From assembly GCA_947625345.1 (NCBI GenBank), contig CANQNX010000007.1, forward strand, positions 1-43,255: a stretch of DNA of 43,255 nucleotides, read 5' to 3'. The notes under the pieces were generated by a model that saw nothing but the letters and a program-made list of their open reading frames with translations, searched no databases and was not told where the DNA came from. Positions within the stretch are counted from its first letter, which is position 1. Each line of letters opens with the position of its first letter. The DNA is from Candidatus Gastranaerophilales bacterium. GTDB lineage: Bacteria; Cyanobacteriota; Vampirovibrionia; Gastranaerophilales; Gastranaerophilaceae. Shown one piece after another: positions 3,016 to 8,715 of the stretch. Both the position numbers and the translations under genes were made by a program.

Positions 3016-3042
3016 AAAAAAGCCCTATTTATAGGGCTTTTT
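3016..3042 (-). terminator. Intrinsic terminator after tRNA-Arg(ACG), bidirectional
   Basis: The 8-bp stem AGCCCTAT/ATAGGGCT (3021-3028 and 3031-3038) with a 2-nt nominal loop is flanked by A5 on the left and T5 on the right. It therefore has a U-tract in both directions. It lies 8 nt past the tRNA 3' end on the minus strand and separates the tRNA from the adhesin. Confidence 0.7.
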
Positions 3043-3050
3043 GCTTAATT

Positions 3051-3124
<74 letters not shown>

Positions 3125-3448
3125 ATATATTTTAAGTTCTCTTATTCTTACTCTCTATTCAGTGTATTTCCATTGATTCAATCAAAAAAAGATAACCATA
3201 TATTACAACATAAATTTATATTATCAAGAAAAATTTTTCAAAAAAAAAGCTGCACAGCAGCTAATACTTAATAATCTTGGGAGGAGATTTGGGGATTTGT
3301 TACAATTATAATAATTTAAAATTGTTAAAAAGTTTATATTTTTTGTTATAATTTTAATAAAAATTTACATAATATTGATTTTAAAATTATATTCTGCATA
3401 CTGGAAAAAAATTTTAGTTTTTCATAAAATCATGTTAAGAGGTGGAAC
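3125..3448. other. 324-bp gap between tRNA-Arg and the GT2-like gene
   Basis: No convincing protein gene on either strand. It holds a minus-strand small-RNA candidate (3239-3299). A weak plus-strand promoter for the next gene is possible: TTGTTA at 3322-3327 and TATAAT at 3347-3352, with a long 19-nt spacer. Confidence 0.5.
3239..3299 (-). ncRNA. Candidate small RNA with C-rich (anti-Shine-Dalgarno) loop and intrinsic terminator
   Basis: On the minus strand a TATAAT (3310 to 3305) is followed about 6 nt later by a likely start near 3299. The RNA would carry UCCCC (around 3291-3295), then a small hairpin AAUCU/AGAUU (3289-3285 with 3277-3273) presenting the loop CCUCCCA. A terminator follows: stem AGCTGC/GCAGCT (3262-3257 with 3253-3248) around a 3-nt loop, then nine Ts. 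No minus-strand gene lies upstream that this terminator could serve, so it looks like a stand-alone ~60-nt transcript. The exposed CCUCCC could pair with Shine-Dalgarno GGGAGG. A good -35 is not visible. The reading is an inference from structure. Confidence 0.4.
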
Positions 3449-5011
3449 ATGCTTAACACTATAAATTTATGTATTATAACCGTTTTATTTTTGTACTGTG
3501 CTATATTTGCAATATATTTTGCACTAATTGTTATATTCAGCAAAATTGTTCCCTCAAAGAAAAAAACAACTGATACAAACGAACATAAAAACTTGGTAGT
3601 TGTTATATATTCTCATAATAACGAAGGAACAATTGTTAATCTTTTAGAACAGCTAAAGAAACAAAACTATCCTAAAGGTAATTATCAAATACACATTATA
3701 CTTGATAATTGTACTGATGATTCTTCAAATAAATTAGAGTTTGTAGGCAGTGCTAAATTGTGGCGCTTAAATGATGATATCCCTTTCGGAAGAGATAAAG
3801 CTATTTCATGGCTCCTTGAAAATCTTTTATCCTTTAAAAAAGTGGATGCATATGTATTTTTAAATGCCAACAGAATTGTTAAAACTGATTTCTTATCCTG
3901 CATTAATGAAGCACTAAATCAACATTCCGTCATAGTAGGTTCAACGGAAATATTTTTAGAAAATGCAAAATATTATGATAAAGTTTTTTCAAATGTTAAT
4001 GAATACAATGTAAATATAATGAAGTCGGGACGTGCAAAATTAGGACTCGCTGTTCCCATTGATTCTGATATTACAATTATTAAACATGAAGTATTGGAAA
4101 AAGTAAGATGCATTGATTTTAAAGATGCAAACGCAGAATTAAAATATTCTTTTCTCTTAACAAGCGTTAATTGCCCACCGATTTTTGTTCCGGAAATCAA
4201 AACTTATGTTTCTTCTGCGGATTATGAAATTAGAAGACCTGATTTTGCTTTTAAAATGTCACTCTTTAAAAACTGCTTGAATCCTAAAATATTAACTAAT
4301 TTTAAATTTTTGGAATTTTTGTTCTCTCTGTTTAAACCAAACCCTATTGTACTTATTGCAATATTAATAATTGTCGGTACATATTCTTTTAACTACTATT
4401 TCTTATTTGATTTTCCATGGTCAATATTTATAGCTTTTGTTTTGGCATTAGCTTTCGGATTTTCAATATATACGACACATCTTTATGCTAAACCGTTATT
4501 GTATTTAGCATCATGCCCGTTCTATACTTTAGCTGATACTATTTCAAAAACAAAGATATGCAAATTTATATCAAAGTTTATAAAACCTAAGAAAAAACCC
4601 GTTATAGAAAAAGTTTCAGTTCCGGTTAATGTTACGAACGGAAGAAATGTTTTCCCCTGTTTTTTGGATTTAATATCAGAAGACGGATTTAAAAAAGCAG
4701 TATTCAGATATAAAAATAAGAAACAAGAAACAACACAAGAGTATGTCAGGATGTGTGATGCCGTTAAGGATATCACCAACACTCTTGAACAACATGGTTT
4801 CAGAATGAAAATTTGCCAATCTTGCGCATATTTTTCCCCTAAAATTGACGGAACAAATAATATGGTTAAAGGTTATTGCAATAAAAAAGCCCTTGAGCAA
4901 GAATTTGACGGCATTATACCTGAGACACTTCTTTGGTCTACTTGTGAATATTTCATTCCGCAGGAAGTTAATAACGTTATAAATATAGCAAATTATATAA
5001 AAAATAAATAA
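3449..5011 (+). CDS. Membrane protein with degenerate GT2 glycosyltransferase domain and Cys4 tail
   Basis: 520 aa; AGAGGTGG precedes the ATG. Residues 8-30 form a membrane segment. Residues 48-260 look like a GT-A fold family 2 glycosyltransferase: VVVIYSHNNEG (50-60), LDNCTDDS (85-92), FGRDKAISWLL (113-123). However, the usual metal-binding DxD is FLNANRI (137-143), with both Asp replaced by Asn. The acidic base region reads DANAELKYSF (226-235), and no clear QxxRW is present. Two more membrane segments lie near 298-345. The C-terminal part (400-520) holds four spaced cysteines (456, 459, 477, 499), in the pattern CxxC then GYC then a final C, which could bind Zn or an Fe-S cluster. It may be a non-catalytic or altered glycosyltransferase of envelope polysaccharide synthesis. 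The substrate is unknown. Confidence 0.75.
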   Translation: MLNTINLCIITVLFLYCAIFAIYFALIVIFSKIVPSKKKTTDTNEHKNLVVVIYSHNNEGTIVNLLEQLKKQNYPKGNYQIHIILDNCTDDSSNKLEFVGSAKLWRLNDDIPFGRDKAISWLLENLLSFKKVDAYVFLNANRIVKTDFLSCINEALNQHSVIVGSTEIFLENAKYYDKVFSNVNEYNVNIMKSGRAKLGLAVPIDSDITIIKHEVLEKVRCIDFKDANAELKYSFLLTSVNCPPIFVPEIKTYVSSADYEIRRPDFAFKMSLFKNCLNPKILTNFKFLEFLFSLFKPNPIVLIAILIIVGTYSFNYYFLFDFPWSIFIAFVLALAFGFSIYTTHLYAKPLLYLASCPFYTLADTISKTKICKFISKFIKPKKKPVIEKVSVPVNVTNGRNVFPCFLDLISEDGFKKAVFRYKNKKQETTQEYVRMCDAVKDITNTLEQHGFRMKICQSCAYFSPKIDGTNNMVKGYCNKKALEQEFDGIIPETLLWSTCEYFIPQEVNNVINIANYIKNK

Positions 5012-7848: not shown

Positions 7849-8715
7849 ATGTTGATACATTATATAGTACCATATACAGAGTATCTTGAAGCTGAACGAG
7901 GGCTTAGCCAAAATACTATTCTCGCCTATCAAAGTGATTTATATTCGCTTTCTGATTTCTTAACGGAGCTAAATATTGAAGATATATCTAAAATCCAAAG
8001 GTTTCATCTGAATTTATACATTAAAAATTTATATGATAAAAAATATACCCCTAAAAGTATAGTCAGAGAAATTGCCTCAATAAAAGGATTTTTTAAGTGG
8101 CTTGAAATCAAGGAATATATTAAACACAATCCCGCATTGGAAATTGAACAACCAAAATTACCCAAGAAGCTGCCAAAAGTACTTTCAATGTCAGAAATAA
8201 CCCAGCTTCTAAATTTAAATATGTCCTTACTTGATAAAGCGGTATTTGAACTTCTTTATGCGGCAGGACTCAGAGTGTCTGAACTTACTGATATTCAAAT
8301 AAATAATATTGACCTTAAGACAAAATACGTAAGATGTATCGGAAAAGGTTCAAAAGAACGTATTGTACCCATTGGCAATAAAGCTGTTAATGCCATATTA
8401 AAATACATTAAAGAACGTGATTACATAATAAAAAAATATAATTTAAAAACAAAATACCTTTTTATAAAAGATTCAGGTAAGAAACTTACAAGACAAGATG
8501 TCTATACATTTATTAACACGATAGGGAAAAATATTAATAAGGACATATCACCTCATACAATAAGGCATTCATTTGCAACACATTTATTGGAAAACGGTGC
8601 CGATTTAAGAATTGTTCAAGAATTATTAGGACATAGTGACGTTTCTACAACTCAACTGTATACTCATATCAGTAAAAAACGGTTAAAAGATATTTATTTT
8701 GCAATTAATAAATAA
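7849..8715 (+). CDS. xerD: Site-specific tyrosine recombinase, XerC/XerD type
   Basis: 288 aa, within the usual XerC/D range (about 290-310). The N-terminal SAM-like DNA-binding domain spans about 5-95 (EAERGLSQNTILAYQSDL). The catalytic domain has Arg142 (AAGLRVSEL), the Lys of GKGSKER (165-171), HTIRH (His236, Arg239), GH (261-262) and the nucleophile Tyr271 in TQLYTHIS. All active-site residues are present, so it should be active. The role expected from the family is resolution of chromosome dimers at dif with its partner and FtsK; XerC versus XerD cannot be decided from sequence alone. The start has a -10-like box 6 nt upstream and no ribosome binding site. There are no integrase-type neighbours, att-like repeats or phage genes, so a chromosomal housekeeping role is favoured. 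Confidence 0.92.
   Translation: MLIHYIVPYTEYLEAERGLSQNTILAYQSDLYSLSDFLTELNIEDISKIQRFHLNLYIKNLYDKKYTPKSIVREIASIKGFFKWLEIKEYIKHNPALEIEQPKLPKKLPKVLSMSEITQLLNLNMSLLDKAVFELLYAAGLRVSELTDIQINNIDLKTKYVRCIGKGSKERIVPIGNKAVNAILKYIKERDYIIKKYNLKTKYLFIKDSGKKLTRQDVYTFINTIGKNINKDISPHTIRHSFATHLLENGADLRIVQELLGHSDVSTTQLYTHISKKRLKDIYFAINK

Follow-up and report, generated by a model that had tools for sequence, protein, structure and literature searches.

Comparative sequence evidence for a previously undescribed small RNA gene with an anti-Shine–Dalgarno-like core in Candidatus Gastranaerophilales

A candidate small RNA gene upstream of tRNA-Arg

The window analysed here is a 43,255-nucleotide (nt) stretch of contig CANQNX010000007.1 from a Candidatus Gastranaerophilales bacterium. 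On its minus strand lies a conserved block of approximately 62 nt, termed here the type I small RNA gene. Its closest gene neighbours are a tRNA-Arg gene approximately 115 nt downstream and a divergent gene at 3449 on the plus strand, which the initial annotation labelled GT2-like and which has no Pfam match. The tRNA, tRNA-Arg(ACG), occupies 3051–3124 on the same strand and has its own strong terminator at 3042–3017 (minus). Elsewhere, the window encodes a large open-ended protein (2–2839, minus) with many GGAIYN-type repeats, which resemble polymorphic outer-membrane or autotransporter passenger repeats, and a XerC/D-like tyrosine recombinase (7849–8712, plus; Phage_integrase, E = 5e-47, plus a SAM-like N-terminal domain). 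Read along the minus strand from 3336 to 3240, the type I locus consists of TAAACT, 17 nt, TATTAT, 6 nt and then ACAAATCCCCAAATCTCCTCCCAAGATTATTAAGTATTAGCTGCTGTGCAGCTTTTTTTTT, with the following features:

3331–3336, minus strand: −35-like TAAACT, kept in the genus alignment (TAAACA or TAAACT); putative promoter element
3308–3313, minus strand: −10-like TATTAT, aligning with TATCAT- or TATTAT-like hexamers of other genera; putative promoter element
3305–3310, minus strand: TATAAT, overlapping the TATTAT at 3313–3308
3298–3303, minus strand: putative 5′ end of type I
3240–3304, minus strand: match to covariance model R1, 87 bits, the window sequence being a member of the R1 training set
3240–3301, minus strand: type I small RNA gene, approximately 62 nt; identity drops sharply past the T run
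3291–3295, minus strand: 5′ UCCCC motif, kept in nearly all homologues
3277–3294, minus strand: order-wide 18-nt core CCCCAAAUCUCCUCCCAA, retained in seven families; query of the contig scan
3279–3286, minus strand: anti-Shine–Dalgarno-like seed CUCCUCCC, mean unpaired probability 0.82 in 51 homologues
3273–3289, minus strand: predicted hairpin, AAUCU and AGAUU around the loop CCUCCCA
3240–3262, minus strand: intrinsic terminator AGCUGC-UGU-GCAGCU plus U run, found by pattern scan; 5 of 6 pairs compensatory

The initial annotation had proposed a stand-alone small RNA here, pointing to a minus-strand terminator (3262–3239) that ends no gene, an upstream TATAAT, a UCCCC sequence and a 5-bp hairpin with loop CCUCCCA. 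All of these were recovered: AGCTGC-TGT-GCAGCT and its T run occupy 3262–3240 with no minus-strand gene at the locus to end, TATAAT is present although relatives conserve the overlapping TATTAT instead, UCCCC is in the sequence and folding predicts the hairpin. No useful reading frame starting with ATG, GTG or TTG was found inside the RNA. The bare pattern is weak: the fold that includes the hairpin has z = −2.3, with 5 of 200 shuffles folding equally well, and the region contains five terminator-like sites against 4.6 expected from shuffles, a single site being no better than chance. The locus rises above chance because it is conserved among relatives. Comparison of relatives, which also sets its strand and ends, strongly supports type I as a genuine, previously undescribed stand-alone small RNA gene with an exposed anti-Shine–Dalgarno-like core.

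Type I is distributed throughout the order

Type I is present in 36 of the 41 genomes of the window's genus as a 70–75-nt stretch of 92–100% identity (in one genome over 52 nt). Across the family, blastn revealed it in 221 of 288 genomes, which represent 33 of 41 genera, and a 27-nt core, AUCCCCAAAUCUCCUCCCAAGAUUAUU, is identical in many distant genera; several others are without type I. Near matches to the core in these genera were rejected, as they lie in coding or unrelated DNA and have no terminators. A covariance search of related genomes, suggested with the initial annotation, was carried out with R1. Within the order Candidatus Gastranaerophilales it found type I in 108 of 117 genomes; this includes 21 of the 22 genomes sampled from six families other than the window's. 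The R1 search of the class yielded no verified type I outside the order; one weak match (L106) was rejected for lack of the core.

We also scanned the GTDB r220 contigs with CCCCAAATCTCCTCCCAARAT. Among the matches listed, almost all those with names were Candidatus Gastranaerophilales, Melainabacteria or 'Cyanobacteria bacterium' metagenome-assembled genomes (MAGs), and the sources were gut plus GWF2_37_15, which is presumably from groundwater. A few oddly named matches among those listed (Fusobacterium sp. CAG:439, Brachyspira RUG745 and Eubacterium RUI358) are probably mislabelled MAGs.

Selection keeps the core and the terminator

Within the genus, column identity (per 10 columns) is 0.95–1.0 from −20 to +40, spanning the −10 region and the core, 0.87–0.9 in the terminator and approximately 0.5 beyond it. 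Variation across genera affects the promoter-like region, the stem and loop of the terminator and the flanks; CCCCAAAUCUCCUCCCAA is nearly invariant and every homologue has AUCUCCUCCCAAG or a close variant as its core. The terminator covaries: in five of its six pairs both partners have changed (17 cells), a result equalled by none of 500 shuffles, with slid controls giving 1–3 cells. The comparison shows purifying selection on the core.

The initial annotation expected both the hairpin and its C-rich loop to be conserved in relatives, and here its two parts separate. The C-rich core persists in seven families. The hairpin stem has no variation in the 30-sequence alignment and is broken in f3, g25, g30 and G317 by a G-to-A change (CCCAAAAUAUUU) that creates a C–A mismatch, while CCCCAAAUCUCCUCCCAA or a one-letter variant stays. 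We accordingly rejected the 5-bp hairpin as the conserved element. Because the core outlasts the broken stem in several lineages, it is the C-rich sequence that is under selection. Folding predictions leave this sequence largely unpaired in every lineage (51 sequences; mean 0.82, minimum 0.60).

Neighbouring genes change between genera

The genes adjoining type I (INDEPENDENCE) change from genus to genus, contrary to the proposal that homologues would be sited upstream of GT2-like genes. In its own genus type I is divergent from a gene homologous to the plus-strand one in the window; in g7-like genera it is divergent from a gene that reads from sequence as 3-dehydroquinate-dehydratase-like; in g6, g20 and g34 it is co-directional with a gene that reads as RelA/SpoT-like; and the remaining genera have unrelated genes beside it. 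Among the genera scanned, just two related ones share the downstream tRNA-Arg with the window. With neighbours so variable and tRNA-Arg in so few genera, a leader or tRNA-associated element was rejected, and comparison indicates that the type I RNA is its own transcription unit.

Most outer genera carry repeated CATG (TATCATGCATGTACAACT) around the type I promoter (81 occurrences versus 4.6 expected at 39 loci), located 62 nt upstream of the gene in, for example, L050, L057, L058 and L063. The presence of these repeats at the promoter of many genera suggests that transcription is regulated; the window's own locus has none.

A sister RNA, type II

Weak second R1 matches led to another RNA, type II, in which a variable 5′ stem-loop is followed by ACCUCCUCCCCAAGUCURGUAGCCG running into a terminator, so that its core, ACCUCCUCCCC, sits between two stem-loops. 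Examples matched by models R2/R3 are:

L258, 1501–1573: type II
L262, 1501–1574: type II
L288, 1501–1573: type II
L400 (f9): type II
G323:C16, 5962–6760; G320:C1, 78382–78612; G309:C191, 9923–10191: tandem type II arrays, copies 150–360 bp apart

Type II was found in 32 of the 33 order genomes tested, including genera without type I, with up to six copies per genome, some in tandem. The window's genus has it in 33 of 41 genomes, among them all five that lack type I; the window's own genome, which is incomplete, yielded no copy. Type II further extends to class families f9 and f15 (E = 1e-13 to 9e-11). Type II retains CUCCUCCC and differs around it. Because models R1 and R3 recognize each other's families (E = 1.6e-4 for the window's type I), the two RNAs are probably paralogues. 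Rfam returned no significant match for type II, the best being RF00519 (E = 0.22).

The two differ in their upstream sequences. The sigma28/FliA consensus is TAAAGTTT-N11-GCCGATAA, and 28 of 48 type II copies, against 0.5 in shuffles, are preceded by TAAAG-N15/16-CCGA, which fits a sigma28/FliA-type TAAAGTTT-N11-GCCGATA; this putative promoter lies, for example, at about 1460–1490 in L261 and also in L262 and L288. The motif was found upstream of none of 47 type I copies. Similar sites precede large uncharacterized proteins in genomes G030 and G112, which suggests a sigma28-like regulon.

Type I matches no Rfam family

The type I region had no credible match in Rfam 15 at gathering cut-offs or at relaxed E-values; the best weak hit, to RsaB (E = 0.09), was far below that family's cut-off, and the Yfr1 model gave no hit there even at E ≤ 10. 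The closest resemblance in the phylum is to Yfr1 (RF01116), in which a conserved motif blocks ribosome-binding regions (PMC6974561). Like type I, Yfr1 is small (54–69 nt), stand-alone and ended by an intrinsic terminator, and it has an ultraconserved unpaired core containing CUCCUC. The cores differ, however (ACUCCUCACAC in Yfr1, CCCCAAAUCUCCUCCCAA in type I), and Yfr1 places its unpaired core between two stem-loops, a layout shared by type II, whereas type I lacks the 5′ stem-loop. The RF01116 model found Yfr1 in 87 of 194 phylum genomes, while no listed genome from the window's family had a match; it did not match G000 although it matched the S. elongatus control, and R2/R3 did not recognize Yfr1 loci. 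Homology to Yfr1 was thus not found by covariance models in either direction. The caution of the initial annotation about homology to RsaE or Yfr1 was well placed. Common descent with Yfr1 is conceivable, given how type II is laid out and that CUCCUC is shared.

Yfr10 uses a C/U motif in a hairpin loop beside the between-stems form, as type I and type II do, but its loop carries the exact Yfr1 motif, in contrast to the CCUCCCA of type I. In RsaE/RoxS and FsrA of Firmicutes, UCCC or C-rich regions that are conserved in RoxS/FsrA pair with mRNAs (PMC8216469); their RNA layout and phylum are different and their Rfam models do not match type I. The alphaproteobacterial cuckoo/alpha-r14 (NfeR1) and AbcR/MmgR (RF00519) RNAs carry anti-Shine–Dalgarno motifs, placed in loops or otherwise unpaired, that target translation initiation regions, but cuckoo/alpha-r14 has three hairpins with the motif in every loop, whereas type I has one weak hairpin and a terminator. 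By the tests used here, type I is a new RNA family that would work like Yfr1/Yfr10, RsaE/RoxS and the alphaproteobacterial anti-Shine–Dalgarno RNAs and is a member of none of them.

Proposed action at ribosome-binding sites

We propose, as the probable reading, that type I is an approximately 62-nt trans-acting small RNA whose C-rich stretches mimic the 16S anti-Shine–Dalgarno sequence and block the ribosome-binding sites of selected mRNAs. Transcription would begin approximately 7 nt after TATTAT, from a sigma70-like promoter, and stop at the intrinsic terminator. UCCCC and CUCCUCCC, both C-rich and single-stranded, would then be exposed in imitation of the 16S rRNA anti-Shine–Dalgarno tail and could pair with G-rich ribosome-binding sites (GGGGA and GGAG/GGAGG) of selected mRNAs, which would block translation initiation. 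We infer transcription of type I, its pairing with mRNAs, the repression and the identity of the targets; the analogy with Yfr1 and RoxS/FsrA makes repression of translation its likeliest mode of action.

Both stretches are complements of Shine–Dalgarno variants. In 1081 start regions from 1.19 Mb of G030, a genus member, three hexamers complementary to the core are enriched before start codons: AGGAGA (57 versus 12.6 expected), GGAGGA (27 versus 4.5) and GGGGAT (20 versus 3.7). Across 292 G030/G112 orthologue pairs, core complementarity is correlated more strongly than for full shuffles (rho 0.32 versus 0.15 ± 0.05) and barely more than for cores shuffled only in the flanks of CUCCUCCC (rho 0.324 versus 0.272 ± 0.035; 26 versus 20.3 ± 5.7 pairs). 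The longest perfect core matches are no longer than those of shuffled cores. Target prediction, anticipated in the initial annotation, thus delivered complementarity to ribosome-binding sites, but of a generic Shine–Dalgarno kind: neither duplex energy, longest perfect complementarity nor the G030/G112 orthologues made a specific target stand out. Type I is thus suited to pairing with ribosome-binding sites as a class. These results weigh neither for nor against the initial annotation's suggestion that it could repress AGGAG-led genes while leaving leaderless ones free.

Against this reading count the comparisons with shuffled cores, the absence of type I from several genera of the family and the near-invariant 18-nt core, whose length exceeds what a Shine–Dalgarno match alone requires. 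That length and the rigidity of the core, together with the lack of apparent specific mRNA targets, favour a real small RNA whose core binds a protein, such as a C-rich-binding S1/KH or cold-shock domain protein that it would titrate or guide. We judge this clearly unlikely: type II keeps CUCCUCCC but varies around it, consistent with a pairing seed, and comparable cores in other systems act through pairing. Slightly less likely again is a real small RNA with one conserved main partner, an mRNA or a G-rich sponge, in place of many ribosome-binding sites. Conservation of the core as one 18-nt unit would suit such a partner, and Yfr1/Yfr2 (Yfr2 being a G-rich sponge for Yfr1) and RoxS/RosA provide precedents, but a search for such a sponge found no complement longer than 12 nt, besides the gene itself, in 1.19 Mb of G030 or 0.7 Mb of G112. 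A locus that is not transcribed, whether a conserved DNA element or a relic without function, is very improbable, given that the terminator changes are compensatory despite varied loop and stem sequences and that the promoter-like spacing is conserved. Least probable of all is an active plus strand, with UUGGGAGGAG as a leader, possibly with a CsrA-like hairpin, whose loop would show GGGAGG beside the adjacent GT2-like gene, as that gene is not kept across genera, the U run and compensating stem make sense on the minus strand only and the conserved promoter-like elements lie there.

Implications

Type I is single-copy and kept throughout an order, and its relative, type II, is also present in two more families of the class. 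This points to a central post-transcriptional regulator in a widespread gut lineage; among the open-licence PMC papers searched, we found none on small RNAs of Melainabacteria. Type I and type II raise the question of how old Yfr1-type control is in the cyanobacterial phylum. One answer, which we consider unlikely, is that they are the non-photosynthetic cyanobacterial counterparts by descent of Yfr10 and Yfr1. The anti-Shine–Dalgarno small RNA system would then be older than oxygenic photosynthesis, and in gut Melainabacteria type II would later have come under a sigma28-type regulon and type I under a regulator that reads CATG. The rigid core also offers a direct handle for target pull-down in bacteria that have so far been genetically intractable.
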